Source of the DNA: Hirundichthys speculiger
Taxonomy: Eukaryota > Chordata > Actinopteri > Beloniformes > Exocoetidae
Length of the DNA: 64,000 nucleotides
Assembly: GCA_018398805.1 (NCBI GenBank)
Contig: JAGFBZ010000290.1
Location: 434,001 to 498,000, forward strand
Direction: 5' to 3'
In this document: piece by piece, positions 4,216 to 63,077 of the stretch
Numbering within the stretch: position 1 is the first letter of the stretch
Layout: each line of letters begins with the position of its first letter
Program-made: the position numbers and the translations under genes
The notes under the pieces: generated by a model
Databases searched by the model: none
Seen by the model: the letters and a program-made list of their open reading frames with translations, nothing else
What the model was told of the DNA's origin: nothing

Positions 4216-4660
4216 TAATAAAGGTCAGGGGTTGGGGTGAGGAAAATAGTTAGGGTTAGGCATAAAGAAGCTGGGGGGTTTGGGTTGGGGTCAGGGTTAG
4301 AGATAAAAAATAATGGGGGAGTGGGGGTTGGATTTGGGGTTAGGGATAAAAATGGTGGGGGGTTGGGGGTAAGGGTTAGAGATAAAGAATGCTGGGGCAT
4401 TGGAGGAGGGTTGCGGGTTAGGGATAAAAGTGGTGGGTTAGGCTCAGGTACAGAGATGAAAAAATGGTGGAGAGGTGGGGGTTGGGGTTAGGAGTAAAAG
4501 AATGGCTGTGGGTTGGGGTTAGGGTTAGTGATAAAAATATAGTGGTGGGTGGGGGTTAGGTATAAGAGATGGTTGGGTGGTGTGGGTTGGGGTCGGGATT
4601 GGGCATAAGAAATAGTGGGGGTTGGGCATGAAAAATGGTGTGGGGGTTTTAGGGTTGGGT
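4216..4660 (+). repeat. Degenerate G-rich minisatellite with TTAGGG-like cores
   Basis: About ten diverged units of roughly 35-55 bp share a GGTTAGGGATAAAAATGGTG-like core joined by runs such as GGGGGTTGGGG. Units begin near 4250, 4300, 4337, 4376, 4414, 4450, 4486, 4519 and 4555. Many have four or more G-runs of three or longer, so G-quadruplex formation on the plus strand is plausible. Open frames on both strands here give Gly/Val-rich or Pro-rich strings and are not genes. Confidence 0.85.
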
Positions 4661-4879: not shown

Positions 4880-6480
4880 GTAGTCGTTGGGTACATTAAT
4901 TGTTGTTTGGTTAGGGACTATTGGGACTTATCTGAACTTGCTATTAAGGCCTTGTGGGTATAGGGCATTTAGTTTGTATATCCTGTTTTTGTCTTTGATT
5001 AGTGGGCCAGTCTGGGTTGTGGTCGATTGTTTTGGTCTTGATGTTTTTGATTCCGTGATTTTGAAAATGTACTATGTGTCTCTATGGGTTTCCCTTTTAA
5101 GGTTTCTCCTGATGTTGTGTTTGTGTGCGTACATGCGGATGGTTACTGTGTTGCTTGTTTCTCCTACATATTGTTTTGGTACTTTGCACATTGGATCGGG
5201 TATATGATATTGTTGGTCTGTCTGTTGAGGTGTTGTGTTATTTCAAATGTTTTTTGGGTGCTTGTGCTTTCAATGATAGGGTTGCTGGTGATGTGTGTGT
5301 GGGTTCGTGTAGTTTTTGTGTTCAATCTGGACCTGACCAGAAGGTCCTTTAAGTTTTTTTTTTTGTTTTTAATGGTAGTTTTTGAAAGGAGGTTTTATTT
5401 TTTGTGTTTCTTGGAATTATTTCTTGACAAGTTTGTGTAGTTTTAGCATGTTGATTGTTAGTGTGTATATGAGGGGGATCGTTTTTTGTGATGTGGTTTT
5501 CATGTGTTCCTTATTTGTTTGGTTTTTGGCTTTTTGTAGTTACGTTCTGGTGTGTTTTCTGTGTCTGAGGTTTTGGAAGAGGAGGGCAGGATGTGGTGAT
5601 ATCTTATGTTTTGGGATTTTACGATGCCAAGGAATGTGTGTTTTAGATGGAAGCTGTCTCTGTGGAGGAGGATCTGTGTGTCTGTGGGTTTCCTGTAGAG
5701 TTTTGATTCAAGTATTTTTTGTTGGGAGGTGGGATTCTTGACTATGGTGGTATCCAAGAAGTCCACTTGGTGCATGTTGAGGTGTGGCTTAACTTTGATT
5801 GATGGTTGGTGATTGTTGATTGTGTCCACAAATAGGAAGAATTCTTCCTGTGAGTGGTTCCATATTCCAAAGATGTCATCCAGGTATCTGTAGTAGGTTT
5901 GTGGGTTTTTTTTGGCATTTGTGGGAAATTTCTTCTTCCCATTGAGCCATGTAGATATGGCATACAAGGGTGAGAATCTCTTGCCCATGGCTGTACCTTT
6001 GATTTGTAGAAACCAAAGGTCATTGACCTGGAATTCATTTCTTTCCAGGTGAATCTGAGGGAGTTGGAGTTGATCTGTTTCCGGACGGTTTGGGTCCAGG
6101 TATTTCTTGGAACAGTTGCGAATGGCTGTTAATCCCTTATCTGTTACAATGTTTGTGTAGAGGCTTTCTACATCCCTAGTAAAAAGGAAACTGCCGGTGT
6201 GGACTTATTCCTTTCTGATTTTTTCAAGGAGGTTATTGGTGTCCCTGATGTAGCTGGCGTGTTTTGTGGACAGTGGATAGTGATTTATCCATTAGGCTGA
6301 TCCACGTGATTTGCCAGTCGTATACAATTAAGCTTCCCACTAAGATTTTGTTTAGTATTGTTCAGGATTGTGTATCTTTGTGTATTTGGGGAGTAGGTAG
6401 AAGAAGTACCTGGCCCATAGTGGGTTAGGTCCTTGTAAGTAAATCAGTTGTTTTTGGTGAGTAGCTTTTTCTGTTGGATT
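4880..6480 (-). pseudogene. Penelope-like retroelement, RT and GIY-YIG remnant
   Basis: Reading the minus strand from 6480 down: a diverged FFYLLPK segment near 6400, then PLSTKHASYIRDTNNLL, an in-frame stop (6205-6207), and RDVESLYTNI around 6170. Next come IKGTAMGKRFSPLYA near 5990, the catalytic YYRYLDDIFGIW near 5890, and HQVDFLDTTI with YRKPTDTQILLH further down. This motif order is the reverse transcriptase of Penelope-like elements. Downstream, after frameshifts, QYVGETSNTVTIRMYAHKHN (about 5110-5195) matches the YIG part of a GIY-YIG endonuclease, and NRIYKLNALYPQGLN near 4930 looks like the C-terminus. A stop at 5072-5074 and several frame changes make it dead. The best open block is 5500-6204. 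The YLDD box is intact; the GIY half of the nuclease is not recognisable. Family call is firm; subfamily is not determined. Confidence 0.9.
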
Positions 6481-9749: not shown

Positions 9750-10314
9750 CAGTAGTATCTTAACTTACGAAATTAATTTGTTTTGAAACTCATTTCATAA
9801 ATGGAAAATTTCGTAATCAGAAACGCATTTTACCCTATAAATGGACAAATCCATTCCAAGGCGCCCAAAAGTCAGACATCATTTTTTATAAATTATAAAT
9901 AATACATGAAATGACATAAAAACCTGTAAGAAATGCATGTTAGAATTAGATTATTGCACAATTATACTAACGTAAAGAATAAAGTACATTAAAGAATAAA
10001 AATTGTTTATTTACCTGGGTTGCGGTCATACAGACAAGGGGTCCCCCTAGCCAATGGCATGCCAGGAAGATGCTGAGCGTTAGCCAATTGCAGAGCAGCT
10101 CGGACGGGCCGCTTTCAAACCAAGATACAGGAGCCGACAAGTATGTTTCCGTTCAGTGGACTCTGGGAGCTGCGAGTAGCAGAGCGTACTTTGAAAATTT
10201 TCGCCTTCGTAACCTGGAATTTCTTTCGTATATCGATGCAATATTTTTAAGAAGAGGCCTTTCGTTAGCTGAAAATTGTATTAATAGATATGTTCGTAAG
10301 TAGAGGTACCACTG
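9750..10314 (-). mobile_element. Tigger-type non-autonomous element (MITE)
   Basis: It is flanked by TA (9748-9749 and 10315-10316), with inverted ends CAGTAGTATCTTAACTTACG and, on the other strand, CAGTGGTACCTCTACTTACG. The interior shares stretches with the elements at 14285 and 60439, including the GCTGCTACTC/AACTCCCAGAG-like and CATCTTCCTGGCAT segments. No transposase is left. TA duplication and CAGT termini place it in the pogo/Tigger group. Confidence 0.88.
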
Positions 10315-10316
10315 TA

Positions 10317-12579
10317 CACACACATACAAAATACATACACGGACAAGAACATTATATTATAAACAAAAACACAAATAATTGTGTGACTGTCTGCCAATGT
10401 GGAAGATTGCAGGTACTGGACTGCAGAAACTGCAGAAACCCAAATGATTCATTCTTACTGAACATCTATTTAAACACAAAAACTCTCCTGACAGAAGAAG
10501 CACAAGAGTCAGTCGTGCTCATTTTCCCCATGCCTCTAATTACTCTCAAAATTATTTTATTTGAATAATTGTGTGTACCTGGAGAGTGTTTGAAAAAGGA
10601 AGCACTTAATAGAGGATGATCATTTGTTACATATTCAGAGCGTGCCCTCATACTGGATGTTTGCTAACAGTGAAGGAAACCTGCCATGTAAGACACAGGA
10701 GAGGCTTGAAGAGGAGGAATGATGTGAGGGACAAGTGGCACATGTTCACAACATGTTCTAACAGCAACAGGACATTTGTTGTCATTTGGGATTCTAATAA
10801 TCGGTCTTCAGCAGTGGCACACAGCTCATAAAAGCAGTTAAACTACTTTACTACTAAACTACTTTGAAACCGTATGAACCTGATTGCTACATTTTTTTCT
10901 GAGAACCATAAACCATCTATGAGTTACTACCACTCAAGTCAACGACAAAAAGAGACTTGATTTTTTTTTTTTATCTATTAAAAAAGATGACCACGCTCTT
11001 AAACATGAGTGCATATAAATTCTGCTTAAAAACATAAGATAGTCAAGTCATTAATGTAGTTATGAATACAAAGTGAAACAGTAAATATCTAATTTGGCAT
11101 AGAGAGCTTTCTATTCAGCACCATCGCAAGGAGGCACAGAGCAGTGGGTAGTTGTCATGTGGTTTTGCTAAAAATTGAAAAAGATTATGTATCCATGTTA
11201 TTAAAAAGTTGGATAGGGGTCTTAGTCACAGTGAGAGTATATGTGCTAGGTAGGACACCTGCAAACTTTTGACCTAAGCTTGAACAGTATTTTTATCTCT
11301 GAAGTAGGTGGGTACCTACACGGATTCTTGGATGCTCAGCTCCCATAACTTTGGTGTTGGACTTTAAATAAACAAAACAGCATTCAGTCACTGTGCATAT
11401 TACTCCACAGGGCTACTCTGTCCTGTCTGTTGGTCATTACACTGCAACATCAGATGACGTGAATTTGTTTTTGACTGGGAAATTGGATTTGTGTACTCAC
11501 ATGCATTGAGAGTCACGCTCAGTGCGTGGGAATTGAGAGCCCTGCTCTAATAGCAATTAGTAAACTGCCTCCATAGTTCCTCGATAATAAAAGATAACAG
11601 CCCAGGTGATTGGAGGCCACTTGAAACAAGTCTAATATCCATTTGTTGTGTGGGATAGCAAAGCGTCCTGATAATGTCTTTCCTCTATTGACATCTCCTG
11701 TATTTATGAAATGTATGTATCACAAACTATGTAGGCCTCAGTGTAATCAGTAGCAACAATTTTCTCACTGTCCCAGACCTAGCTAATGTCTTTTTTGCAA
11801 TTAGAGTGGCAGTGAAATTGCTTTTGAATGTTGCATGTCATAAAGAAGCATTGCTGTGTTGTTTTTGTTATTGTTGTTGTTGTTGGTGTTTTACTTGTTT
11901 TAATAGTTAAAGGTTCCAGGTGAGCCTATTTTTTCCAGTCAGTTAAAACTCAAGCTTTATGTTCTGATAACATTCTTCTGGCGATCCAACTAAATGGATA
12001 GAAATCTCTTCTTTCACAACCATCCCCACAAGTGTAGTACAATAGTTGGTTGCCGTTCTGTCAGCCATGAGAAATGCTAAATTTAAGAAGTGCATGATCT
12101 CTGTTGTGAATAATTGTGCAATTGAAAGTGATCGCAAATGCAAAGGTTAGTTAATAAGTCTGGGCAGTTTATTTGAATACAGTTTGAATATATACATTTT
12201 TCACTCTGTAAGTCCATCTGCCATAAATATGCAAGAAGATCATTGAGTACCATTGAGTATCTAAGGTGCTTACTTATCCTTTGAAATGATTTACAGTCAT
12301 TCTTTAACAACATAACCAAGTGTGCATCACGAAGAAAACAACGTGTAATTGCCATCTTCAACTGAAAATCCTAGTGTTTGATTGATGTGTAAAATGCAAA
12401 TTTAACCTGAATTGGAGAATTTTTCTCTAATCTTGTCCTTTTAAAAATCAGATCTTCTTGTTGCCACAATCCCATTAATTTTGAACTGAGGAAGCTGACA
12501 ACAGCTTTTGTCATCCAGAACACGAAAAATTTAAAATGTCTCTCCTTTGTCTGCAAGGGTTAATTGTTTCTGTGATTTC
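10317..12579. other. Long non-coding stretch, no transposon recognised
   Basis: Looks single-copy. Small open frames have no homology I can name. The block 11480-11640 is relatively complex and contains TAATAGCAATTAGTAAACTG; it could be a conserved non-coding element, but this is only a guess from its composition. Confidence 0.45.
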
Positions 12580-14038: not shown

Positions 14039-14284
14039 ATATGGTAAGTCCTACTGAAAATGAGCCAACCATCATCTGTAAATCAGAACAATACATTGAA
14101 GCATCCATTATCTTCGTAAAGTGTCTGAAAGATCTTCCAATACTGTGTTAGTCACCACTCATAAGCAGCCATTACACATTACTGCAATTATTTACATCAC
14201 CAACAATTTCATAAAAATGAATAATCAGAAACTATATCATAAATATGACTAATATACATTCCTTGAATAGGGGAAACCCAAATA

Positions 14285-15024
14285 CAGTAGTACCTCTACT
14301 TACGAACGTCTCTACATACGAAACTTTCAGGTTAAGACACGCCTAAATGGGAAAATATTGCCTCTTGTTACGAAAGAAAATTTCAGGTTACGAAAGGCAA
14401 AAATACAGTACGCGCTGCTACTCACAACTCCCAGAGTTTACCAAACGTAAACATACATGTAGTGCTCTGCCACTGGCTAACGCCTAGCATCTTCCTGGCA
14501 TCCCTCTCTGAATTCTCTGAATTTCAGAATTTGTTGAAAAGAATCATCCCAGAAAAAGTGTTCACCAGTAAGGCTATCGCTCACCATATTCATGTTTGCC
14601 TTGCACAATTTCGAAGGATTGTTAAAAGCCGACAAAAGCAAACATCCTTTGATCGGTTCTTTACAAAACGTCAGGCAAAAACCACTGCTGAGAGAGAACA
14701 TGAACCAAAGAAGGCAAAAGGTGACGACAATGGCAGTTAAAAGGTAAATGAATATAATATTTATTCTTTACTTTATTCTTTTTTTTTTATTATATACAAC
14801 TCTCATTTTATGTTTATTGTGCAGTAATCTAATTGTAAAATGTATTTGTTACATATTTTGATGCGTTCTTATAATTTATAAAAAAAATTTATGACTGAAT
14901 TTTGGGGGGCTTGGAACGGATTAGGGCATTTACATGGAAAACGCGTTTCTACTGACAAAATTTTCAGGTTATGAAACTACTTCCTGAACAAATTAATTTC
15001 ATAAGTAGATGTACCTCTGTACTG
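14285..15024 (+). mobile_element. Tigger-type element, internally deleted
   Basis: It starts CAGTAGTACCTCTACTTACG after TA and ends in the inverse (AGATGTACCTCTGTACTG). It retains only the 3' end of a transposase frame (14505-14740). The right-hand TA is mutated to TG. This is the longest coding-bearing member of the family also seen at 9750 and 60439, and it shows the orientation of the other two. Confidence 0.9.
14505..14740 (+). pseudogene. Tigger/pogo transposase C-terminal fragment
   Basis: The frame reads FQNLLKRIIPEKVFTSKAIA, then a CLAQFRRIVKSRQKQTSFDR segment and FFTKR, ending PKKAKGDDNGS and a stop at 14738-14740. The HFRxILKxRQKQxSLDRFF-type tail is characteristic of Tigger-like (CENP-B related) transposases of the Tc1/mariner superfamily. 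The DDD catalytic region and the DNA-binding domain are missing, so the protein is non-functional. The ATG at 14462 lies upstream in flanking element sequence and is not the original start. Confidence 0.78.
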
Positions 15025-23181: not shown

Positions 23182-23643
23182 AAAAAAAAAATTTCTTGAA
23201 ATGATTATCTCCTCAACCTTTAAGGTCATGCACATTGAGCCTTATAAATGAGATGAGCAGTACTCAAAAAGGAGTAATATAAATAGAAAACCTAAACTGC
23301 AAGAGCAAAATAATCTACAATCCCAAAGCAAAAAGACTTGTTACATATAATTGTTGGAGGCAGTGTGAACATTGCATTCTGTCCATCTTCTTTTCATTTG
23401 TCAGTGTGCATCAGTGTTTGCATTGCAGGCCTGTGATACAAAAGTATTGCGAATAAAAGATGGTACAGAAAACCTTTGCCACTTAAAAAGCATTGGCGAT
23501 ACTAGGAGATGAACCATTTTAATTGTTATTTTGTCCTGTTCTCCCTCCAAACACATCTTAAGGTGGGCAACATTAGTGAATCATAGGTCATATTTTTCAT
23601 TTCAAAGTTATCCACAAATTCACTGCAAGGGAGAGGTCAGGTG
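23182..23643. other. Non-coding spacer
   Basis: Nothing recognised between the outer hAT and the large palindromic element. Confidence 0.5.
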
Positions 23644-23647
23644 CAGG

Positions 23648-23824
23648 TGTTCCGGGAAATATGGGGGCGCCGGGAAATTTGGGGACACTTCCGGGGTCAC
23701 TTCCATATTTGGCAGAAGGGGGCGTGGCCTGAAGCGCCGCAGAAAGCCGGCCACGGGCAGTCGGGGCCCCATTAGGGGGGTTCCAAACATGTCGCTGCAG
23801 TGTCTATGGAGGTTTCAGGTTGTG
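23648..23824 (+). repeat. Left terminal inverted repeat of the palindromic element
   Basis: GC-rich compared with the arrays; holds GCCGGCCACGGGCAGTCGGG and ends in GGAGGTTTCAGGTTGTG. It pairs with 27873-28038. Confidence 0.93.
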
Positions 23825-25408
23825 CTTACCTGACATTTTTGAGACATCAACAGAACATTTGAGTCGCTTTCAAAGGTTTGCATCCAAAAAGATGTCATAT
23901 TTCATCACTTTATTGTCTTTCATAAGGGGGGACCAAAAATCCCGGGATATTTGGGTCCCGCCATTAGAACTAACATTCTCTTCGCAAAATCACGTTTTTA
24001 CTGCTTACCTGACATTTTTGAGACATCAACAGAACATTTGAGTCGCGTTCAAAGGTTTGCATCCAACATGCTGTCATATTTCATCACTTTATTGTCTTTC
24101 ATAAGTGGGGACCAAAAATCCCGGGAAATTTGGAACCCGGGATATTTGGGTCCCCCCATTAGAACTAACATTCTCTTCTCAAAATCACGTTTTTACTGCT
24201 TACCTGACATTTTTGAGACATCAACAGAACATTTGAGTCGCGTTCAAAGGTTTGCATCCAACATGCTGTCATATTTCATCACTTTATTGTCTTTCATAAG
24301 TGGGGACCAAAAATCCCGGGAAATTTGGAACCCGGGATATTTGGGTCCCCCCATTAGAACTAACATTCTCTTCTCAAAATCACGTTTTTACTGCTTACCT
24401 GACATTTTTGAGACATCAACAGAACATTTGAGTCGCGTTCAAAGGTTTGCATCCAACATGCTGTCATATTTCATCACTTTATTGTCTTTCATAAGTGGGG
24501 ACCAAAAATCCCGGGATATTTGGGTCCCCCCATTAGAACTAACATTCTCTTCTCAAAATCACGTTTTTACTGCTTACCTGACATTTTTGAGACATCAACA
24601 GAACATTTGAGTCGCGTTCAAAGGTTTGCATCCAACATGCTGTCATATTTCATCACTTTATTGTCTTTCATAAGTGGGGACCAAAAATCCCGGGAAATTT
24701 GGGTCCCCCCCATTAGAACTAACATTCTCTTCTCAAAATCACGTTTTTACTGCTTACCTGACATTTTTGAGACATCAACAGAACATTTGAGTCGCGTTCA
24801 AAGGTTTGCATCCAAAAAGATGTCATATTTCATCACTTTATTGTCTTTCATAAGGGGGGACCAAAAATCCCGGGATATTTGGGTCCCACCATTAGAACTA
24901 ACATTCTCTTCTCAAAATCACGTTTTTACTGCTTACCTGACATTTTTGAGACATCAACAGAACATTTGAGTCGCGTTCAAAGACTTGCATCCAAAAAGAT
25001 GTCATATTTCATCACTTTATTGTCTTTCATAAGGGGGGACCAAAAATCCCGGGAAATTTGGAACCCGGGATATTTGGGTCCCCCCATTAGAACTAACATT
25101 CTCTTCTCAAAATCACGTTTTTACTGCTTACCTGACATTTTTGAGACATCAACAGAACATTTGAGTCGCGTTCAAAGGTTTGCATCCAACATGCTGTCAT
25201 ATTTCATCACTTTATTGTCTTTCATAAGGGGGGACCAAAAATCCCGGGATATTTGGGTCCCGCCATTAGAACTAACATTCTCTTCTCAAAATCACGTTTT
25301 TACTGCTTACCTGACATTTTTGAGACATCAACAGAACATTTGAGTCGCGTTCAAAGTTTGCATCCAACATGCTGTCATATTTCATCACTTTATTGTCTTT
25401 CATAAGGG
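23825..25408 (+). repeat. Forward tandem array, 9 units of 179/195 bp
   Basis: The marker GCTTACCTGACATTTTTGAG occurs at 23824, 24003, 24198, 24393, 24572, 24752, 24931, 25126 and 25305. Spacings are therefore 179 or 180 bp, or 195 bp when a second CCCGGG-bearing 16-bp piece is present. Each unit has a CCAAAAATCCCGGG ... TTTGGGTCCCCCC quasi-palindrome. Units come in two variants at one site (CAACATGCTGTC or CAAAAAGATGTC), which alternate irregularly, as expected from unequal exchange or conversion. Confidence 0.97.
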
Positions 25409-25450
25409 GGGACCCAAATATCCCGGGTTGCAAATTTCCCGGGATTTTTG
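25409..25450. repeat. Centre of symmetry of the palindromic element
   Basis: CATAAGGGGGGACC on the left meets GGTCCCCCCTTATG on the right, around a short asymmetric core CAAATATCCCGGGTTGCAAA. The arms reverse direction here with almost no spacer. Confidence 0.9.
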
Positions 25451-27107
25451 GTCCCCCCTTATGAAAGACAATAAAGTGATGAAATATAACATCTTTTTGG
25501 ATGCAAACCTTTGAACGCGACTCAAATGTTCTGTTGATGTCTCAAAAATGTCAGGTAAGCAGTAAAAACGTGATTTTGAGAAGAGAATGTTAGTTCTAAT
25601 GGGGGGACCCAAATTTCCTGGGATTTTTGGTCCCCACTTATGAAAGACAATAAAGTGATGAAATATAACATTTTTTTGGATGCAAACCTTTGAACGCGAC
25701 TCAAATGTTCTGTTGATGTCTCAAAAATGTCAGGTAAGCAGTAAAAACGTGATTTTGAGAAGAGAATGTTAGTTCTAATGGGGGGACCCAAATTTCCTGG
25801 GATTTTTGGTCCCCCCTTATGAAAGACAATAAAGTGATGAAATATAACATCTTTTTGGATGCAAACCTTTGAACGCGACTCAAATGTTCTGTTGATGTCT
25901 CAAAAATGTCAGGTAAGCAGTAAAAACGTGATTTTGAGAAGAGAATGTTAGTTCTAATGGTGGGACCCAAATATCCCGGGATTTTTGGTCCCCCCTTATG
26001 AAAGACAATAAAGTGATGAAATATGACATCTTTTTGGATGCAAACCTTTGAACGCGACTCAAATGTTCTGTTGATGTCTCAAAAATGTCAGGTAAGCAGT
26101 AAAAACGTGATTTTGAGAAGAGAATGTTAGTTCTAATGGGGGGACCCAAATTTCCTGGGATTTTTGGTCCCCCCTTATGAAAGACAATAAAGTGATGAAA
26201 CATGAGAGCATGTTTGATGCAAACCTTTGAACGCGACTCAAAATGTTCTGTTGATGTCTCAAAAATGTCAGGTAAGCAGTAAAAACGTGATTTTGAGAAG
26301 AGAATGTTAGTTCTAATGGGGGGACCCAAATTTCCCGGGATTTTTGGTCCCCACTTATGAAAGACAATAAAGTGATGAAATATGACAGCATGTTGGATGC
26401 AAACCTTTGAACGCGACTCAAATGTTCTGTTGATGTCTCAAAAATGTCAGGTAAGCAGTAAAAACGTGATTTTGAGAAGAGAATGTTAGTTCTAATGGGG
26501 GGACCCAAATTTCCTGGGATTTTTGGTCCCCCCTTATGAAAGACAATAAAGTGATGAAACATGAGAGCATGTTTGATGCAAACCTTTGAACGCGACTCAA
26601 AATGTTCTGTTGATGTCTCAAAAATGTCAGGTAAGCAGTGAAAACGTGATTTTGAGAAGAGAATGTTAGTTCTAATGGGGGGACCCAAATATCCCGGGTT
26701 GCAAATTTCCCGGGATTTTTGGTCCCCCCTTATGAAAGACAATAAAGTGATGAAATATAACATCTTTTTGGATGCAAACCTTTGAACGCGACTCAAATGT
26801 TTTGTTGATGTCTCAAAAATGTCAGGTAAGCAGTAAAAACGTGATTTGGAGAAGAGAATGTTAGTTCTAATGGGGGGACCCAAATATCCCGGGATTTTTG
26901 GTCCCCCCACAATAAAGTGATGAAACATGACAGCATGTTGGATGCAAACCTTTGAAAATGACTCAAATGTTCTGTTGATGTCTCAAAAATGTCAGGTAAG
27001 CAGTAAAAACGTGATTTGGAGAAGAGAATGTTAGTTCTAACGGGGGGACCCAAATATCCCGGGTTCCAAATATCCCGGGATTTTTGGTCCCCACTTATGA
27101 AAGACAC
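25451..27107 (-). repeat. Inverted tandem array, 9 units
   Basis: Same unit as the forward array, opposite strand. The marker CAGGTAAGC ends at 25560, 25739, 25918, 26097, 26277, 26456, 26636, 26831 and 27001, giving spacings of 179, 179, 179, 180, 179, 180, 195 and 170. The last unit is shortened. Open frames of 70-289 codons on minus are by-products of the repeat, not proteins. Confidence 0.97.
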
Positions 27108-27110
27108 TAA

Positions 27111-27840
27111 AGCCGGGCATACATTGTACGATATTTTAAATCGTTTGATTCAGCCCTATCTCAAACTGCACGACTAGATCGCTGAGTTCAAAAGTTCACA
27201 GCCCACGAGTAATGCTCTCACACTGTACGGCCCGATGCTCTGATGCGACTTGACTGCTTACACTATACGTTCATAACGCACCTAAGGGTGCGTTCGAAAT
27301 GAGCCAGGCCTGCGCAGAATCGATCACCGGTGGGCGGGGCACAATGCAGATAAGAACACGTTTCATGCAACAGGAAGATCACTTTTATTTTAACTTCAAT
27401 CAGCGATCGAGGACACTTTATCTAAGAACGTGGTCTGCAAACTACATACAGGTGACCTAACAGGAAGTAAGTGTCTCCTCCTGAATGCTGGAAACTGTCC
27501 GACTTGACTGCAGCTTTTTGTCTCCACCTCCTGCTGCGGCCGCCTGATCTCGTCTACTCGCCAGGCGAGCCGCAGTTCATCTCAAACGCACCTACTGCTT
27601 CTACTGTGGGATACCTTCACGAGGAGCGACCAGGATTTCAAACAAGTTTGATTTCCTTGCGAGCACACGATTTGTGATCGGGAGCTCGTCGGGAGGTGTT
27701 GATCTCTCGTCGTTACCCCACGTATACTGCACGTAGCACGACCCACGATAGGGTCGAAATTCGGCCCGATCCAAAAAATAGTCGCACGACTGGAAAATCG
27801 GCTCAAAACGAGCCGACAGTCACACAGTGTATGCCCGGCT
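27111..27840. mobile_element. PIF/Harbinger-type MITE in the right arm
   Basis: Inverted ends AGCCGGGCATACATTGTACG and, on minus, AGCCGGGCATACACTGTGTG. The 3-bp duplication TAA lies at 27108-27110 and 27841-27843. TWA duplications are the mark of PIF/Harbinger insertions. The interior has no transposase. Confidence 0.85.
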
Positions 27841-27872
27841 TAAAGCCGGCTAATATCGATCCATAACAATGA

Positions 27873-28038
27873 CACAACCTGAAACCTCCATAGACACTGC
27901 AGCGACATGTTTGGAACCCCCCCTAATGGGGCCCCGACTGCCCGTGGCCGGCTTTCTGCGGCGCTTCAGGCCGCGCCCCCTTCTGCCAAATATGGAAGTG
28001 TCCCCAAATTTCCCAGCGCCCCCATATTTCCCGGAACA
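27873..28038 (-). repeat. Right terminal inverted repeat of the palindromic element
   Basis: Begins CACAACCTGAAACCTCCATA and ends ATATTTCCCGGAACA; it is the inverse of 23648-23824. Confidence 0.93.
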
Positions 28039-28042
28039 CAGG

Positions 28043-31000
28043 CAGGTCAGTGTAGTACCCATTACCTTCTTCTTCCTCAGTCACATCTTCACAGTGGTGT
28101 AGAATCTGGTATATATCAGTCTAGTTCACTTGCTCTGGACTCACATTCTCAAATGCACATGCAGTCGGCCTCACTGCTTCAACACTGGACCACTGGAGCT
28201 AAGATTTTAACACAAAAATTAAAAAAGACATCTTACTCCACTTAAGAGACCAGTAAATTACTATGATTTCCCTTAGTGTATACAATAGTATTTGATGCTT
28301 TATTAAGGTTTGGAACTTCATTTAAGCTTTAACATCTTGTTACAGTGAAGTGGCATTTAACATGTTAAAATTACTATCATGTACCACAGATCACAACAAC
28401 CTTCTCATCCACCGACTCATCTCCCTCCAGGGGGATGACTTTTTTCCCTCAGGTTGCTTTTGAGAAAAAAATAGAAAATGCATTTCATTCAGAGGAGAGC
28501 AAAAATTGAGCTGTATTGATCATCTCCTACTTTTGAACCCTTGACTTGCAAACTTTCATGCAAAAAACGAAATAGTTCTCAAGTCCATATTAGTGCGTAA
28601 AGATAATGAATATAATTCACATGTTCGCCAAGTGGTAGCAGTAGGTGTCCATGATGCTGGTCAGTGCTACTGTCTTATCTATGAAAAGAAAAAGAAGGTT
28701 GAAGACAATAGGGGTCTCATTATAAGCCTAAACCTGAGCCATTGATGCTATTGAGGTTTTACAACAGTCCAGTCAGAATCTTCTCATCCTCCATCTGTTG
28801 TTGATGATTCTTTTGATGATTAAAAACCAATGAGAAATACTGTTAATATGTCCAAATCTAAATATGCCTGAATCTAAACCTATTATGTACACATATCAAT
28901 ACAGTATAGTACAAATGCTTGACATCCAAACAAAATGACTAATGAAGAGCCTCTCAGAATGACAGACTATACTGTCAGCCCAGTGGTGCCTGAAAAGTGA
29001 CAGAGTACAGTGTTATTTTTCCAGGTACCATCAGACTGCCCAAATACCTCTTTTTTCCAAGTATAAGGGAAGGTTAAAACTCAACAAAACTATAAAAATA
29101 GAGTAAGGCAGGACGTGAATTGGTATGTTAATTGTTTCATAAGACCACTGAGTTGTACTATTCAATCACATCATTTTCCAGATCAATCAACAGTAAATAA
29201 TATAGCCATTTTATTTCCAAAAACCAAGATAATGCTTCATATTTAAACTCCTCAGCCAAAGATGCCTTGCATGTATCACCACATGGCATAGTCATAATGT
29301 GAGGGATGTTCATCTTACGTAAGACATAAATTTAACATCAAACCTTATTGTTAAATTCAAAGCATTGGGTATGTATTTCATTTTCAAAACCTTACCAAGT
29401 TGCTTGACAGCGGATATGTGACCAAAAAGGGTGGGGTAGGGGGGTGGGGCAGATAAAATGAAGAGGAAAAGTGTCAAGAATAGAACTTTCAACAGAATAT
29501 AACAGTGATATTTGTAGTAAATGAGGAAAATTTGAGTCTTCCAGGACTCAAATTCAGTTCTCCCAGGTGACAGTCAGTGTGCTAGAACAATCTGCCACCT
29601 TCCCCAGAATAAGTTTTCATTTGTGGTTTATAAACCTGACAGTAACCTGAGAGTAGTAAAGGTTGGGTCAGACATGTTTCCAAAAAAGGAAAAATCAGAT
29701 AGGAATATGAGAATTGTAAATCTTGTACATATTTGTGCTTTCTAGAACACTACAATGGTGACTTCGCTGCTTCCAGTATATCTTTACCCTCCTCATAGTC
29801 TTTTGTTAATTTTGCTTATCTATTTTTATACAATACAGCTTCTTCTATACAGTTTCTACAAGGACCTTGTTTATTTTCTGTGTTTGGATCTTATTGATTT
29901 GGTTGATCATATGCATATGTATATATGCGTGAGTGTGTGTGCGTGTATGTGTGTGTGTATGTGTGTTTATATGTGCCATCCTCATCATTTTGCCTTTCCT
30001 TTTTACTTAAATGTCAGTCACTCTCTGGAATATCCCTGTCCTGGTCTGTCCTTTCTTTACACTCTCTTGTAACAACTCTTTCTAAAACCTCCTTTTGAGT
30101 TACCTCTACCAGTCTGTTCCTCTCTGTATATATACAGAGAGTCCTGCACACCAAGTCCTGCAACATTGTGGCCATATATCTGTGTGGACTGTATAAAGTA
30201 CAACCATTTCTGCACAGGCACATGCTCTCCAAGCAAATGGATATACATACAAAATAAACAAGGTCTCATTTATAGGAGGGGAGTAAAAAGGCTGTCATGA
30301 TATGGAACTCTTGAACAAACTTAAACACAGATTCACACACACAGCCTTTAAGAAAGATGAAGAGACATCCTGTATAACAGAAGCAACAGTAATGAACTAA
30401 GCATCATCACAGAGCAGCTCACCCGCTCACAACGTTTCTCCATTTACAATGTATATTTATATTATGTAAAGCTGAATCTACAATAAATCCTGTTTTGGTT
30501 CAGCTCACAGTCCTGTCATTAAGACTTTGCCTCAAAAAGCCAAAACAACAAACAAAAACAGCGAACAGCTGTGTCAACCACTGCTAGAGAATGACACGCT
30601 TTTATCGCTGTGGTAAAGGTCCTGTAGCTATATTGTAGCGACGTAATGTAAAAAGTGAAGTGATGGCACAAACCACCAGGTTAGAAATGTACCTTGTAGA
30701 GGTATAGACCGGAAACCACAAAAAAATGTTTCAATCTAGCAATGCCAAAAGAGATACAGCATATGTTAACTCTGGGGTTTTTGATGTTAATTCTGGATAG
30801 GATGTTAAAAGCCAGTGAGACTGTAGACTTTAGGATTGGTGGAGATGTCAGCAACACATTAGAATTAACACAGAGAGCAGCTGTTTGTTCTCTGCTTCAA
30901 GCCAGGAACTAAATTGTTTGTTTGTTGTTGGTTTTTTTTGTATGTTTTTTTTATGATCACATCTGACATAATGGAAGTCTCCTTGCCTGAATTATTGTTT

Positions 31001-46357: not shown

Positions 46358-47095
46358 TAGGGCTGGGCAAGTTAACGCTTTATTATCGCGTTAACTCATC
46401 AATTTATTAACGCCGACATTTATTTTATCCCGCGTATATGCTTGTTGCTTACATGCTTTTGTTTTGAAAAGTCTGTTACTGGCTGCAACAAACCGGAACT
46501 AGGAAAACACACGGAAAAGCTAAAACTGATAGAAAACGGTAAAAATTAGTATACTTTACAGTTCGGGTAGCAACTTGGGTAGCAATATCAACAATTCTGT
46601 CGGGAAAAAAAAAAATTCTGAGCTGCAACAAAACGTTTGCGTCATTCCACCATGTTACATCAGATCTGTTCCATGTGTTCACTGTCGTGTTATTCTCTTA
46701 CTGGTTACTTCAGTACTTCAGTTCATCTAGTGGCATCTAGTGTGTAATGATAACAGAAAGTCCAGTCGACGATTATAAAACAAATTCAGCTCTGTGGCAC
46801 GTTTTTTAATTTTGTATTTTTGATCCAAGTCTAAAATTGAAATAAAAAAAAAACTGGCATTTTTTTGTGTTAGATTAAAAAATGAAAAACATAATAAAAT
46901 GTCACTTTTTTAAATTTTTTTTGTTTTTGATTGATAATTGAAAATGGAAAGAATGAACGATACACGGATTGGTAAAGTTACTGAACTTTAACATGGACAT
47001 TTTCATTTTAAAGTTCTCCCAGACGGAGGATTTAACAGAAACAAGGTTATTTGTAACCACTGCCAAGTTGAACTTCCAGTTAAAACAGGGTTTCT
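46358..47095 (+). mobile_element. hAT element, left part
   Basis: Starts TAGGGCTGGGCAAGTTAACG with GCGTTAAC and TTAACGCC words just inside, as in a very common fish hAT family. The part 46500-46795 recurs at 63078-63360 and 63685-63710. A BED-finger relic follows at 46990-47092. No right end was located; another sequence starts at 47096. Confidence 0.7.
46990..47092 (+). pseudogene. BED-type zinc finger relic of a hAT transposase
   Basis: The frame reads HGHFHFKVLPDGGFNRNKVI then CNHCQVELPVK: the F..F....K..C..C core of a BED finger, the DNA-binding domain of hAT transposases and ZBED proteins. A stop precedes it (EL-stop-HGHF), and the His half is cut off by the sequence starting at 47096. 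Confidence 0.65.
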
Positions 47096-53790: not shown

Positions 53791-54081
53791 CTATCACTCA
53801 CACTTGTGCATTTATTAAAAATAATAAATAAATATTGCCAAAGAGGACTGGTGAAGGGCATGTCCACTTTTCACATTAATCCGTTTAATTTATCTGCAAG
53901 TTAGCACTCCTTTTTTTGACTTATCACACCAATACAGTACTGAGAGATCTAAGAAAAGAAAAGTGACATTTTGATCATTTGCAATGTTGAAACAAATGAA
54001 AATCCAGTCCCGAAAAGTGCCTAATGCTGCAGCTGCTAATGCTAATGATAGCCAAGCAACAAACTCTCCACAACACGTGAC
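53791..54081 (+). mobile_element. Likely 5' UTR of the L1/Tx1 LINE
   Basis: Precedes ORF1 directly. 54018-54047 (GCTAATGCTAATGATAGC) is common in fish L1 leaders. The exact start is not defined. Confidence 0.4.
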
Positions 54082-54860
54082 ATGTCTTCTCTGACAATGG
54101 AAACCGAAGTTCTGATTTACAGGGTAACTCAAAGTTTCAGTGACGTTGTGGAGGTGAAACTCTCAAAGTTTTCAGAGACACTTGAAAAAATTTCCATGAA
54201 TTTAGAGACCCAGTCCAGCCGCATTACCGCCGCGGAGCAGCGAGTCTCGGATGTTGAGGATATAGTGGCCGGCTTGGAGACTAGGCTCGCTGAAATAGAC
54301 AAGAAAATGAAGCAAATGGCTGATGCCATGGATGATTTGGAGGACAATATTCATGTCCTTAATCTGAAAGACGGCACGGAGGGAAATCGTCGAGTACAGT
54401 TTTTTGAATCCTGGCTGCCTACTGTACTTGGACTGACGGCAAGCCCCGGGACTAAAGGCCGCATTAAAATTGACCGAGCACACCGCAGTTTAGGACCGCG
54501 GAGAGCGCGTCCCCGACTGGTTATTATTAAACTTAACAACTCCAAGGGACAAACTACGGATAATGACAGCAGTACGATGTAAATCTAACTTGGAATATGA
54601 AGGAAAACGGATCTTTATCCATCATATTCCAAGTTAGATTTACATCGTACTGCTGTCAATCTAATTTGGAATATAAAGGAAAACGGATCTTTATCCATCA
54701 GGATCTGGCTCCTGCGGTCCGAGAAAAGCTTCGCGCCTTCAACGGAGTGTGTCAAGCCTTAATAGACAAGGGGTCCGCTTCACCATGCGCTATCCGGCTA
54801 CGCTCACCATAAACCACAAGGGCAAGGTGCACAGTTCGAGGCCGGGACGGGTGCAGAGGA
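54082..54860 (+). pseudogene. L1/Tx1-type LINE ORF1 remnant
   Basis: The start ATG at 54082 gives MSSLTMETEVLIYRVTQSFS. A heptad-rich coiled coil (residues 25-95: VSDVEDIVAGLETRLAEIDK and so on) follows, then an RRM-like region (NIHVLNLKDGTEGNRRVQFF and IKIDRAHRSLGPRRARPR). This order is that of L1 ORF1p, a trimeric RNA-binding protein. The frame breaks near 54545. Its C-terminal domain continues in other frames: NLEYEGKRIFIH, QDLAPAVREKLRAFNGVCQA, and FTMRYPATLTINHKGKVH at 54777-54835. A foldback duplication sits at 54569-54705. Not functional. Confidence 0.88.
54569..54705. repeat. Foldback duplication inside L1 ORF1
   Basis: GCAGTACGATGTAAATCTAA with CTTGGAATATGA (about 54569-54600) is followed by a 24-bp spacer. 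Then comes its inverse, CATATTCCAAGTTAGATTTA with CATCGTACTGC (about 54624-54654). After that the spacer piece AAGGAAAACGGATCTTTATC and the preceding AATTTGGAATAT recur in direct orientation (54660-54700). The whole is a snap-back plus forward jump. Confidence 0.93.
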
Positions 54861-55488
54861 CTTTCTTGATAAGCTGAAATAAAGGACCACTCAGTTCTGT
54901 GGCGTGTGTACTGGGCGATTATATGACCACGTGCCGCCAGGGAGTGAGTAAGGTGTGGTGTATTGATTTTGTTATCTTGTTATTATTATCCTTTTTTGAC
55001 AGAATATCAATGTGATATTAGAAAGAAGGGTTTTAAAACTGCATTGGCTTAGTTAACTGTATTTGACACCATGCTTGAGTTACAGTCATATCTGACATAT
55101 TAGTTTGGTGTGTTAGCAAAGAAAGGATAATGGCAAATTCATTAGACTACCATAATACTAAAATGCTCACTATTCATTTTATGTTGTGGGAGCGGGGGTG
55201 AGATATGAAAGTTGTTTTTTTTTTCCAGAAGTGATTACTCCTCTAGCAGCACATGCTTATTTATTTTCTTTCCCTTGAATTCTCATGCTCCAATATTATT
55301 TTCATATTTTTTGTTTCGTGTGTGTGAGTTTGGGGGTGGTTCTTTTTGTTCCCCCACGTGTAGGAGATGTACAGTACAGCAGTTTATTTTCCGAACAACA
55401 GTGAATTACATATTTCTTGTCATGGGCTATACTTTTTTTTCTTTGAATCAAATAATTTTCTTTTACTACCTGACAAGTTATTTACACT
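54861..55488 (+). other. Inter-ORF region of the L1/Tx1 LINE
   Basis: AT-rich spacer of about 630 bp with T runs; no coding motifs readable. Confidence 0.5.
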
Positions 55489-57975
55489 ATGAATAACACA
55501 CAAGTCATTACACTGAATGCCAAAGGTATCAACCATGTGGTGAAGAGACGTAAAGTACTATCTGTGCTCAAAAAAGATAAGGTACAAGTGGCATTATTAC
55601 AAGAGACCCACCTTACTGATCTTGAAAACTTAAAATTAAAACGAAATTGGGTTGATATTCTATTCTTCATTTAACTCTTAAGAGTAGGGGGGTAGCAATA
55701 CTTGTCCATAAACATGTGGCATTTACACTAAATAAAGTCATATGTGATACAGAGGGAAGATTTGTAGTTATTACTGGCTGTCTATATGGTGAACAAATTC
55801 TCATAGGAAGCATCTATGCCCCCAACACCTTTGATAGCTCATTTTACTCTAAATTGCTGGCTAATATCTCTTCCATTTGTCCTTCATTAGTAATAATCGG
55901 AGGGGATTTTAACTGTGTTTTGGACCCAGGGTTAGATCATAGCCCGCCTCTACCACTCTCCAAGATGGCTAGAGCCACAAGTGAACTCTGTTCTGATCTC
56001 GGCCTGTTTGATGCATGGAGTGTTATCAACCCACAAGGGAAAGATTTAATTTTTTCTCCCGCCGTCATCATTGCTTTTCAAGAATTTATTATGTTTTCAT
56101 TTCCAAATTAGCTTTAGATAGGACTAACACTATTAACACATGTACCCTTTCCGACCATTCATCAGTCACTTTTGAACTTCTACCACCTTATTATGACCCC
56201 ACGTCCAGCCACTGGCACCTAAATCCATGTCTCCTGAGCAATCCTTCATTTTTAACATATCTTGAATCACAATGGGAACTTTTTATTTCTACAAATGATG
56301 CGCCTGATGTCCCTGCTTCAATCTTGTGGGAAACAGGCAAAGCATTCCTGAGGGGTGCCATAATATCGTACACAGCTGCAAGGAAAAAACGTTTGTTAGC
56401 AAGACAAGTAGAACTTGAACAGCAAATTACAGTACTAGATAGAAAGTTCAAGGCTACCTCCTCAACTTTGTTTTTAAAAGATTAGAAGCAGCATGATCTT
56501 CCTTGGATCAACTGCTAACCCAAAAAGCAGGATCAGCGATATTCTTTGCCAAACATAGACTCTTCGAATCTGGTAATAAACCTAGTAGGCTTCTTGCCCG
56601 TTTGGCCAGAGGCTGTAAAGGAATTAATGCAATACCATCACTTAGGGACAGAATTGGCACAGAACACTTTGAGACCAAAACTATATGTAAAATAATGAAA
56701 GATTTTTATCAGGAACCAAACTCATCAGACTACCAAAACACTTCAGAGCATAGGAAACTTTTTTTTTTATAGAATAAACTTTCCCACATTATCCGAAAAA
56801 TGTAAAAATGATCTCTGTTGACCGATTACAGTACAGGAAGTTCTTGAGACCATTAAATTTTTGCAGAGTGGGAAAGCTCCAGGTCCTGATGGGTTTGGCC
56901 CCGAATTTTACAGGAAGATGGCCAAATCAGTGGTGGGCCCTCTGTCTAATATTTTTACTGAATCTTTTCAAAGGGGCACGCTCCCACCAACTTTAAATCT
57001 GGCCCACATCTCTTTGATTTTAAAGAAGGATAAACCCCCTGATCAGTGTGCATCTTACAGACCGATAAGCTTAATTGGGGTTGACTGCAAGATACTATCA
57101 ATACTGCCTGGCTTGAAGATTGGAGGAGGTGCTACCTGCCTTAGTTAAATCAGACCAGACAGGGTTTATTAAAGTTACATATTCATTTTCTAATGTTCGC
57201 CGGCTTCTGAATACAATACAATTTTCACATAGTACAAAGAAAAGGGTCCTCGTCATTTCACTAGATGCTGAGAAAGCGATTTGACGGCGTAGAATGGGAG
57301 TATCTTTTTGATGTTCTCCATAGGTTTTGGATTGGGCTCAAGTTTTATTGAATGGACCAAACTTCTATACAGATCCCCTACTGCTAGAATTCTTGTAAAT
57401 GGCTCTAAATCTAATGTTTGTCCCTTGAGCAGAGGTACACGACAAGGCTGCCCCCTCTCACCACTGTTATTTGCTCTTGCACTGGAGCCTTTGGCAGAAG
57501 CTATTACGAGCCACCATGGGATGTCGGGGGTTGCATTGGGAGGCAACGAATATAGAATTTCACTTTAGGCTGATAATATCTGGCTGTTTATTACCCAACT
57601 CACAGAGTTTGATCCCTATTTTGTTATCAATTGTTAGTCAGTTTGCAGTTTGGTCAGATTCCAGGGTACAAAATTAATTATAGTAAGTCAGAGGCCTTGC
57701 CACTTGGTGACTTTGGAGACTGAACATCCTTGGTTAATTTCCCTTTCAGATGGTCATGTTCAGGTTGTCTGGATTTAAGACAAACTCCAATCAGTCACAC
57801 AGTGGTAGAGGAAAATATACAAGGTTTTTTTATGGAGCATCTCAGTGCCTCATTAAAGGGCAATGATGACTTGTTTTATAGTGTCTGGCAACCCTTCCTG
57901 AATCATCTTCCTGGTGACCTTGTTGACCTGCTGCAGAAAGGGCAACCATATTTTGCTTTCATCAATAAGTCATAG
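55489..57975 (+). pseudogene. L1/Tx1-type LINE ORF2 remnant (endonuclease + reverse transcriptase)
   Basis: ATG at 55489: VITLNAKGINHVVKRRKVLS, then VALLQETHL, the first endonuclease block. Later IIGGDFNCVLDPGLDHS (about 55895) and CTLSDHSSVTFELL (56145) complete the APE-type nuclease. RT motifs: FLQSGKAPGPDGFGPEFYRK (56856), ASYRPISLIG (57050), VISLDAEKA then a 1-base frameshift before FDG (about 57275), and RGTRQGCPLSPLLF (57434). The catalytic YADD site has become stop-ADN (57566-57577). A deletion then joins to the C-terminus (FYSVWQPFLNHL, about 57878). At least six frame changes; at about 2.5 kb it is shorter than a full ORF2 of 3.5-4 kb. Dead. Confidence 0.92.
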
Positions 57976-60436
57976 AAAACTTTTTTTCCCCATCCAGAAA
58001 CTTGTTTCTGCATTAAATATGAACAAAGAAAATGCTCATTCAGTAAGCAACAGAGATTTTGATATGCTTTGATGCTATGAAATCATTCAATAAAAAATCC
58101 ATTGACCTCAGCGTCCCAGGATAGCACCACAAATTGACAAAACTGATTCCTCAAAAACTTTGATAGCCTGACAGCAAAATGCTTGAGAATTTTAGCAAAC
58201 TATTCCTTAAACTACTGCATTCTTTCAAGCTGAACTCGAAAAATGGCTTAGTGGCTTAGTGAGGCGTAAATCTGTGAGAAAGGCATTTGCATTATTATCA
58301 AATAATTATTTTCTGGTCTTAAATGGCTGTTTTCTTATGTTTATACAGAAAAAGTAGTTATTGAAATATCACGGCTTTCCAACTTTGTTTTTCTGCATTT
58401 TTCAGGATTTTAGAAAGAACTTTCTTGAAACTAACACAAAAGGGCAAATGTTTAGGGATTCAAATAATAAAATATCTAGTTGTTAAGTCAAATAAAATGA
58501 TCTTTTATATATTTTTTGGAAGATACTATGTGGTCAGCAGCTGCTTCAAGTCTTTGACTGTAGACAGACTGTCTAGCATACAGTTCATCAACCTTGCTGA
58601 TGCCCTTCCCATTCTTCTGTGTCGCCAGTCTCAGTCTCACTGCCTTATACTTGGTTATCAGCCAGTGGAATACAAGCTCAGACTTGTGAAGGACAATATG
58701 ATCTCACAGAAATTCATACAATAATACCACTCTCTGACATCCTACATTACATCATGGTGTCACGTAAAGCCTAGAAATTATGTGCTGGCACCACAAATAC
58801 AGTACCTTTGGACAGTTAATCTTAAACTCAAACTTTGTTGTGACAGATACAAGATTTTCCTCTCTCAGCTGAGATGTGTGCTGAATAGAGATATTGCTAT
58901 ATGAAGGTACTGGCAACAATAATAATATGAAAAAATCTAATTATATTATTAGATTAATAATAGTTATATATATATTCATATTGGGAGTAATCCAGTTCCA
59001 GTTATGTTCTGGCTGATATTCCAATGTAAAGTGTTGTTGCATTGCTGGTGGCCACCTGTCATTTTATGTAAGTAAGAAGAAAACGAGGAAGAAGAAACTG
59101 AGTTACCTCATTGTAATAGCTATCTACTCTACAACAATCTAATGTGTGTGGCTACTGCATCATAAAATAATGTTATAAGAGATGAGAGACAAAAGCAAGA
59201 TCATCTACCAGCACCTGAAATAATGACTAACTGAGAGGATTTTTTTTTAAATAAGAAAATGCAATAAATAACTAAATAAATAAAACAGACTTCATCAGGT
59301 ATCAAAATTGGATATATGTATATACTGTCACATACACAACAAATCATGCCATTGCACTATAGCAACATTATCAGTTAAGAGAGAGAAGCATGCTCAAAGC
59401 AAGCTCAGCCTTTAGCCTGGCGACTGCTAAGTTAGGTTCTAGTTGACCTCTTTGCTCCTGAAGAGAATTGAAGTGAGTATAGAAAATGATAATTCAAGTA
59501 GATGTGGAAGTAGTCTATGAGAAATTAAGAGCACCCAATTCATGTAACACTTTGTGACTTTCACATTGCTGAGGATAAATTTTAGCCAACTATTCTTTAC
59601 AACATTGGTTCAGGTCATTGACATCTGTAGGTATTTGTTTATGAAGTGCTCTTTTAAGGTTCCACCATGCATCATTTCAATCAGGTTGAGCTCTGGTGAT
59701 TTGACTGGATTATTGCAGCACCTTACTTCTTTTCTTTTTCAGTCATTTTATTCTGTCATTTTCCTGTTGCATTATTCATTTTTGATCAACTGACATATGG
59801 CTTCACATTTGACTTTGGGATACTATGGTATGCAGAAAAGTTCATGGTTCCATGACAGAGTGACAGGGAAGAGCATAAACTGTATATATAGCTGGATGAA
59901 CTGTCAGCTGCCCACCAGCGCAGCTCGCCTGAAGGGGCCAGGAACCACAGGGAATCATTTTAGGATTCCTCCAAGTGGAATTATGCTGTGATCCTCCAAT
60001 CAATCATCTCAGCTGCTAGTCTTTGCAGCGGGACCTTCCGTCTCAAATGTTTGCTTTGGTGGCTACATGAAATGACTGCTTTAATTAGCATGGCTAAGCT
60101 AAGCTTTGTCCTCAGATCATTTCAGACCATTAACAGCTATTAACAGTGCTCTGTAAGTACAATTAACACAAAACAGAAGCACAACAAAGCATATTCTCTT
60201 TAAAATTTTACCATGATCTGTTTTTATTCACAGCTCAAAAGTCAATAAAATGCTAAGTGCTAAGTAGCTAAAATAAATACAGCAATGGCTATCTGTCAAT
60301 CAAATGACATTCAGCCATTTTATTAGTCAGCTTTTATTGTTTTATATAATTTTACTTGATGTGGCACAAAAATAATTCAGCCCATCATACAGTTCTTATA
60401 GAAGACAAATTTAATTACAAAGACCAATGCTGTAAG
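57976..60436. other. Long plain non-coding stretch
   Basis: The first ~150 bp may be the LINE 3' UTR. Beyond that there are no transposon ends or genes I can support; open frames at 58425-58724 and 59554-59793 have no recognisable domain. Confidence 0.45.
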
Positions 60437-60438
60437 TA

Positions 60439-60745
60439 CAGTGGTACCTCTACTTATGAACATCTCTACATAAGAAATTTTCAACAGGAAAATACTGCCT
60501 CCTGTTACGAAAGAAATTTCAGGATACGGAAGGCAAAAATGGCGTACGCGCTGCTACTCACAGCTCCCAAAGTTTACGTAAACGTAAACGTACTTGTCGA
60601 CTCTTTATCTCGGTTTGAAAGCGGTGCGTCCGAGCTGCTCTGCCATTGGCTATCGCTTAGCATCTTCCTGGCATCCCATTGGCTAGGAAGGCTCCTTGGC
60701 TGTATGAGCGTTACCCAGCAACCCAGGTAAACAAACAATTTTTAC
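60439..60745 (+). mobile_element. Tigger-type MITE, 5' part
   Basis: Starts after TA with CAGTGGTACCTCTACTTATG and shares GCGCTGCTACTCACAGCTCC, TAGCATCTTCCTGGCATCCC and other stretches with 14285 and (inverted) 9750. Interrupted at about 60746 by another repeat; it resumes at 61006. Confidence 0.88.
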
Positions 60746-61005
60746 ATCCGCCAAGGAGGTTATGTTTTTGCCGGCGTTTATCTGTTTGTCTGTCTGCTTG
60801 TCTGTCCATGTTTCAAGATAACTCAAAAAGTTATGGATGGATTTTGATGAAATTTTCAGGGGTTGTCGGAAATGTGAAAAGGAAAGAACTGATTTCATTT
60901 TGGGTGTGATCCAGAAGAAATCCTGGATTATAGATCACTTTCAATTTTTCGATAATTGTTGCGCTTGGTGGAAGGTATGCACTCTCCGAGTGCTTTTTTT
61001 TTAGT
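60746..61005 (-). mobile_element. Repeat inserted in the Tigger MITE (short copy)
   Basis: From CCGCCAAGGAGGTTATGTTT to CACTCTCCGAGTGC and TTTTTTTTTAG. It is the inverted, internally shortened form of 61247-61672. Ends carry the complementary words CCGCCAAGGAGG and GCACTCTCCGAGTGC. No coding capacity. Confidence 0.82.
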
Positions 61006-61100
61006 TCCAACATGTCTTTCTTACAGGTTTTTATGTCATTTCATGTATTATTTATAATTTATTTTTTAAAAAATTATGTTTGAATTTTGAAATTAAGTTA
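61006..61100 (+). mobile_element. Tigger-type MITE, resumed part
   Basis: CATGTCTTTCTTACAGGTTT, then TTATGTCATTTCATGTATTA: matches the inverted 9890-9945 part of the MITE at 9750-10314. The right terminus is lost. Confidence 0.82.
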
Positions 61101-61246
61101 AAACTGAGTAAAATCAGAGTCATAATTGAATGTAAAATAAAAAGAGATGATTCATGCTCAACTCAAAGCTAAAACTTAGAATGAAACTTAGATGAAGTGT
61201 TAACTACTTGGGGAAACATAATGTTATCATTAAAAAAAAAAACTAG

Positions 61247-63069: not shown

Positions 63070-63077
63070 TCACAAAG

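Follow-up and report, generated by a model that had tools for sequence, protein, structure and literature searches.

A 64-kb window of the Hirundichthys speculiger genome (contig JAGFBZ010000290.1) contains, at 23648–28038 (all coordinates are window positions), a palindromic element in which two opposed satellite arrays face each other between terminal inverted repeats (TIRs). Its structure is confirmed by our analysis. We propose that the element is a non-autonomous foldback-type DNA transposon whose satellite arms carry its own tip motif; we infer mobility from this one locus and give the reading a probability of about 0.6. The inverted ends, the foldback geometry and the absence of a recognisable protein support a non-autonomous foldback-type transposon. 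Judged from the sequence, the repeats seem to be more than unrelated cargo and look derived from, or mimicking, the element's own tips, because the unit pairs its tip motifs as the element end does. A preliminary description had read the locus as a non-autonomous transposon that carries and spreads a satellite. The first half of that reading stands, specified as foldback-type, whereas the satellite no longer looks like mere cargo, since its unit shares the paired tip motif.

Anatomy of the element

The element starts with TGTTCCGGGAAATATGGGGG and ends with the reverse complement of TGTTCCGGGAAATATGGGGG. The alignment of its TIRs (177 and 166 bp) has 178 columns, made up of 163 identities, two mismatches and 13 gap columns, of which 12 bp are present only on the left and 1 bp only on the right; 163 of the 165 ungapped positions are identical, which bears out the near-identical inverted ends of about 170 bp in the preliminary description. 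The tetranucleotide CAGG lies directly outside both TG...CA ends, as had also been described, and is the simplest candidate for a target-site duplication (TSD), putative and, at one locus, weak evidence alone.

A later insertion interrupts the right arm, as previously noted: a 730-bp miniature inverted-repeat transposable element (MITE) flanked by TAA duplications. These agree with the 3-bp TWA-type TSD of PIF/Harbinger, and we take the MITE to be a candidate PIF/Harbinger-like one. Its CpG observed/expected ratio of 1.11, compared with 0.45 for the window, is perhaps a sign of youth. Without the MITE and one TAA, the element measures 3658 bp, close to the 3.66 kb given earlier, with arms of approximately 1.8 kb each, in which 1661 of 1708 aligned positions are identical and 217 further columns are gapped. 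Two structural features of the foldback class are present, namely long inverted repeats that make up most of the element and tandem repeats inside them (nine units per arm).

A unit anchor recurs nine times in the forward direction (23825–25306) and nine times in reverse (25539–26980), in agreement with the count of nine units each way made beforehand. Units are 179, 180, 195 or 170 bp long, apart from the two central ones, which are shorter, being cut at the centre. In the alignment, each 179/195-bp unit consists of a core, about 144 bp in length, and of a palindromic module of the form GGGGACCAAAAATCCCGGG...CCCGGGATATTTGGGTCCCC, which occurs in a short version of 33 bp and a long one of 49 bp. 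Complete cores measure 135–145 bp, and all 17 of them (eight in the left arm, nine in the right) are flanked by inverted module arms; neighbouring units have one module in common, and its palindrome is not doubled. A partial tenth unit is found in the right arm only (27042–27110) and includes an outer long module at 27042–27092. The earlier account of a palindrome holds in its main points, with one correction to the anatomy: the arms enter the unit at different phases, the right arm via a linker of about 29 bp that is missing on the left (Table 1).

Table 1. Features of the palindromic element and its immediate flanks, in window coordinates.
Feature	Position	Strand	Description
Putative 4-bp TSD, left half	23644–23647		CAGG, directly outside the left end
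Left TIR	23648–23824	+	177 bp, begins TG
Tip motif CCGGGAWATNTGG in left TIR	23652 and 23670		Two copies, 18 bp apart
Forward array	23825–25405	+	Nine units: eight complete cores and one truncated core fused to the TIR
Inverted centre	25406–25458		One 53-bp long palindromic module where the direction changes
Reverse array	25459–27110	−	Nine units and a partial tenth
Later MITE insertion	27111–27840		730 bp, TIR AGCCGGGCATACA, TAA on both sides
Linker, right array to right TIR	27844–27872	−	Absent from the left arm
Right TIR	27873–28038	−	166 bp, ends CA
Tip motif CCGGGAWATNTGG in right TIR	28004 (one mismatch) and 28022		Two copies
Putative 4-bp TSD, right half	28039–28042		CAGG, directly outside the right end

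Tip motif shared by ends and satellite units

A scan of the window for the tip motif CCGGGAWATNTGG, with up to one mismatch allowed, gives 42 matches, and all 42 fall inside the element, a count that mainly shows the motif's confinement there. Four copies (one with a mismatch) are located at the tips and 38 in 18 modules, with one to three copies per unit module. Shuffling of the tip–unit alignment is a fairer test than this count. The best local alignment pairs the tip motifs at their 18-bp pitch with the motif pair of the long module at a 16-bp pitch, and its score was reached by 1 of 1000 dinucleotide shuffles for the left TIR (that single shuffle exceeded it) and by 8 of 1000 for the right TIR.

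These results bear on the source of the satellite. A transposon with these ends might have taken up an unrelated, pre-existing satellite and expanded it internally, a course that a passage in a review proposes for miDNA4 of Xenopus, and units outside the element may exist. Such a capture does not explain why tip motifs are paired in the unit as they are at the ends, and we consider it unlikely. A more far-reaching reading, also quite improbable, is that each unit is a miniature end-pair, with a core between two inverted tip motifs, so that the satellite consists of the element's own ends and single units can be cut, inverted or re-inserted by the transposase or by recombination at the modules. 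The element would then build and invert its own satellite and could seed satellite arrays at other places in the fish genome.

Folding, RNA signals and coding potential

The predicted RNA fold pairs the whole element end to end, with 1675 pairs spanning the centre and an energy of −3391 kcal/mol, compared with −1143, −1068 and −1190 kcal/mol for three control stretches of equal length from the window. A transcript of the locus could form a long hairpin according to this model, in line with the hairpin of about 1.8 kb per arm suggested in the preliminary description. From the alternative proposed there, a fold-back element producing long double-stranded RNA (dsRNA), the foldback geometry and the predicted ability of the RNA to fold as a long hairpin are retained. 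All 18 units (23825–27000) carry CAGGTAAG and AATAAA (18/18 each), both reading outward from the centre, and 18 of the 21 CAGGTAAG sites of the window fall in units. CAGGTAAG is a strong match to the vertebrate 5' splice-site consensus.

Both the strong end-to-end fold and the outward-reading signals would suit a host locus, that is, an immobile inverted satellite array which serves as a source of long dsRNA or hairpin RNA and whose ends simply mark the outer portion of an inverted duplication. Against this explanation, which we regard as clearly improbable, stand the sharply defined TG...CA ends, the direct repeat immediately beyond them and the tandem tip motifs at both ends.

Open reading frames in the element extend to 307 codons. 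A Pfam scan of two array frames returned three and one weak matches, all under the curated cut-offs, and a homologue search with a 255-codon frame yielded 43 word-sharing candidates, none of them at an E-value of 0.001. In view of the sub-cut-off Pfam matches and the lack of a homologue for the 255-codon frame, the unit is not regarded as coding. No transposase family was detected in the two array frames scanned, and no relatives were found for the single 255-codon frame searched. The earlier statement that no protein is encoded holds as far as these tests reach (two frames against Pfam, one homologue search), with the qualification that frames of up to 307 codons are open. Rfam gave no match at gathering scores in the entire window. 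Unit and tip patterns had no match in plasmids, phages and viral contigs (three patterns) or in prokaryote contigs (two patterns), a result of little weight, as these collections are not intended for fish DNA.

Inverted centre and evolution of the arms

The forward array ends in CTTTCATAAG, followed by the 53-bp module and then by the reverse array, which agrees with the earlier observation that the arrays meet with almost no spacer. The direction changes within a module with two similar arms, and the 53 central letters are identical to the module at 26677–26729 inside the reverse array.

Units are not separated by arm (permutation p = 0.10 for whole units and 0.16 for cores). Mean distances among whole units are 3.5% (left arm), 3.9% (right arm) and 4.0% (between arms); for cores, the respective values are 2.2%, 4.7% and 3.7%. 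Letter-identical units occur within an arm (F2 and F3, R5 and R7) and across the arms (F6 and R4), and the core of R6 is the same as those of F2, F3, F4, F5 and F8. Mirror pairing of units is at best marginal: mirrored pairs differ by 3.4%, against 4.0% for between-arm pairs in general, when whole units are compared (permutation p = 0.053), and by 3.3% against 3.7% when cores are compared (p = 0.14). Shifting the register by one to three units gives core distances that are as good or better in one direction (2.6–3.3%, six to eight pairs) and worse in the other (3.6–4.4%). Recent copying of one whole arm has left no clear trace, as the mirror excess is marginal and register shifts do as well. 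Exchange between the arms would fit this pattern of core divergence.

Long palindromes are a known problem in sequencing, and the inverted centre might be the product of a foldback-chimera read or of misassembly, as might be suspected from the identity of two of the nine mirrored core pairs. A fresh foldback chimera, however, gives arms that mirror each other, yet the other seven core pairs differ by 3 to 6 substitutions per approximately 100 bases, including the three nearest the centre, which differ at 3, 5 and 4 (the innermost at 4/100 plus one indel). In addition, the MITE and the linker are present in the right arm alone, and the outer ends are intact in both arms. A foldback-read artefact is unlikely because seven of nine mirrored cores differ and because of the MITE and linker on the right only, and we judge an artefact of either kind to be very improbable. 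Scarcely plausible is a fusion, head to tail, of once independent short MITEs with ends like CCCGGGATATTTGGGTCCCC, to which the outer TIR would be related: all 17 complete cores do lie between inverted arms holding the tip motif, and a passage on Xstir of Xenopus records MITE-derived tandem repeats (PMC12628747), but no solo unit was seen elsewhere in the window, and adjacent units share one module instead of showing a doubled palindrome.

Comparison with known transposons

The following comparisons draw on passages of the cited papers. The closest design found is Tetris, a non-autonomous foldback transposon of Drosophila virilis with unknown transposase, whose TIRs consist of an outer flank and tandem repeats of about 220 bp (TIR-220) and whose authors suggested a placement in the Mutator superfamily (PMC4079207). 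They proposed that the repeats raised transposition by means of extra transposase-binding sites (PMC4079207). Like the element described here, Tetris combines non-autonomy with long, tandemly repeated TIRs, and its repeats share 37 bp with the outer flank. In contrast, Tetris has a TSD of 8–10 bp as well as inner and middle domains, while our element has a putative 4-bp TSD and no middle domain. The left TIR of one complete Tetris copy holds three or four repeats, compared with nine units per arm here, and Tetris repeats are 87% alike within complete copies (94% over all), compared with about 96% for the units of our element. Our element further differs from Tetris, as described in these passages, in that every unit contains a palindromic module and the arrays reverse direction at one of these modules.

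Galileo, a member of the P superfamily in Drosophila, is likewise foldback-like: its long TIRs contain tandem repeats, and some of these repeats provide additional transposase-binding sites; for Galileo G, two such sites in the TIR repeats were demonstrated by band shift (PMC3688188, PMC3573991). It differs from our element in its 7-bp TSD and in the THAP-domain transposase encoded by fuller copies, as opposed to a putative 4-bp TSD and no recognisable protein. By its anatomy, the element may be said to work like Tetris and Galileo. Given its different putative TSD and the lack of a transposase in the array frames scanned, we assign it to neither family. A 7-bp TSD as in P/Galileo is not supported by the flanks, which agree at only 2/7 positions, and the 8–10-bp TSD of Mutator is not supported either (5/8, 2/9 and 4/10), although a worn duplication is possible in a single copy.

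Ginger1 and Ginger2 resemble the element in their TG...CA ends, their TIR lengths (approximately 40–270 bp in Ginger1 and 50–180 bp in Ginger2) and the 4-bp TSD found in most of them (PMC2836005). Both families were nevertheless rejected as candidates: they require TGTNR ends, combined with a CCGG or CCGT/ACGG TSD in Ginger1 and an AT-rich RTATAY target in Ginger2, whereas the element has TGTTC and CAGG. Satellite arms, which characterise the element, are not mentioned in these passages of PMC2836005. Xstir is similar in that it is a tandem repeat, there derived from the interior of a MITE, but the passage describes no palindrome of two opposed arrays (PMC12628747). Among the literature matches listed, which are open-licence papers, no such element is described from fish.

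Proposed mechanism and significance

Based on the anatomy and on the foldback elements compared above, we propose the following hypothetical sequence of events for a non-autonomous foldback-type transposon, in which (i) a transposase made elsewhere would recognise CCGGGAWATNTGG, present as two copies 18 bp apart at each end; (ii) the arms would be lengthened by tandem amplification of a unit with one to three tip motifs in its palindromic module; (iii) the transposase would bind secondarily to the motifs of the modules, by analogy with the extra sites demonstrated in Galileo; (iv) recombination or template switching inside a module would flip part of the array without a scar, leaving two arrays that face each other at a module without a spacer; and (v) exchange and conversion would keep the units alike in both arms. 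Judged by this anatomy, the internal repeats probably act as extra transposase-binding sites. A scarless flip with unchanged junctions is possible because every complete core is located between inverted module arms, and a flip inside a module would thus explain the missing spacer.

Several points weigh against this scenario. Although shuffled sequence contains on average only 0.15 matches to the tip motif (maximum 1), this figure overstates the case, since the motif was chosen after inspection of tip and unit and the array copies are not independent. The tip–unit similarity spans only 32 bp, albeit in the same paired arrangement. Neither a transposase (array frames scanned) nor a superfamily (ends and TSD compared) was found, and no other match to the element was obtained in the window at an E-value of 0.001, so that mobility rests on one locus. 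A 4-bp match of the flanks has a probability of 0.5% by chance when estimated from 1-kb flanks and of 1.4% within 28 bp, where the flank is rich in CAGG. Moreover, AGGTCAG occurs in both flanks, 7 bp from the element on the left (23634–23640) and 5 bp from it on the right (28044–28050); a shared 7-mer of any kind is expected in 1.8% of random 20-bp pairs. The AGGTCAG pair could be due to chance or to a target preference, or the true boundary could be wider; its presence beside CAGG makes the boundary of the element less than certain, and a single copy does not allow it to be proven. Finally, the binding sites of Galileo G occur in only two of four repeats, and the first binding site of Galileo is situated about 70 bp from the end, while the motif of our element begins at base 5 (passages of PMC3688188 and PMC3573991).

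The origin of satellites from transposons has, in our reading of passages from reviews, mostly been deduced from worn remains. In the present element, ends, units and the switch of direction are preserved side by side with little divergence, and the tip motif recurs in the repeats. This makes it possible to test the idea, partly demonstrated in Galileo and put forward for Tetris, that foldback elements multiply their transposase-binding sites in the form of internal repeats. Recombination inside palindromic modules would represent a concrete route to opposed arrays without a spacer, and the element could help to show how a transposon turns into satellite DNA.

Other features of the window

A reverse-transcriptase fragment without a Pfam match is located at 5503–6204 on the minus strand and is presumably of the Penelope-like type. 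Sixty relatives of it were listed; seven carry an organism name, of which six belong to bony fishes and the seventh to a Cetobacterium metagenome bin, in agreement with the teleost source assumed in the preliminary description. The region 54052–57568 probably represents the remains of an element of the long interspersed nuclear element (LINE) type, whose frame 57293–57565 matches RVT_1 at a level slightly below the Pfam cut-off. Dispersed repeats at 9763–10317, 14280–15006 and 60434–61671 occur as several pieces in the window, at 75–87% identity, and a further dispersed pair (46516–46781 and 63074–63344) is 75% identical. At 4282–4560, a degenerate, G-rich sequence repeats in tandem about every 79 bp and contains words similar to GGGTTAGGG.

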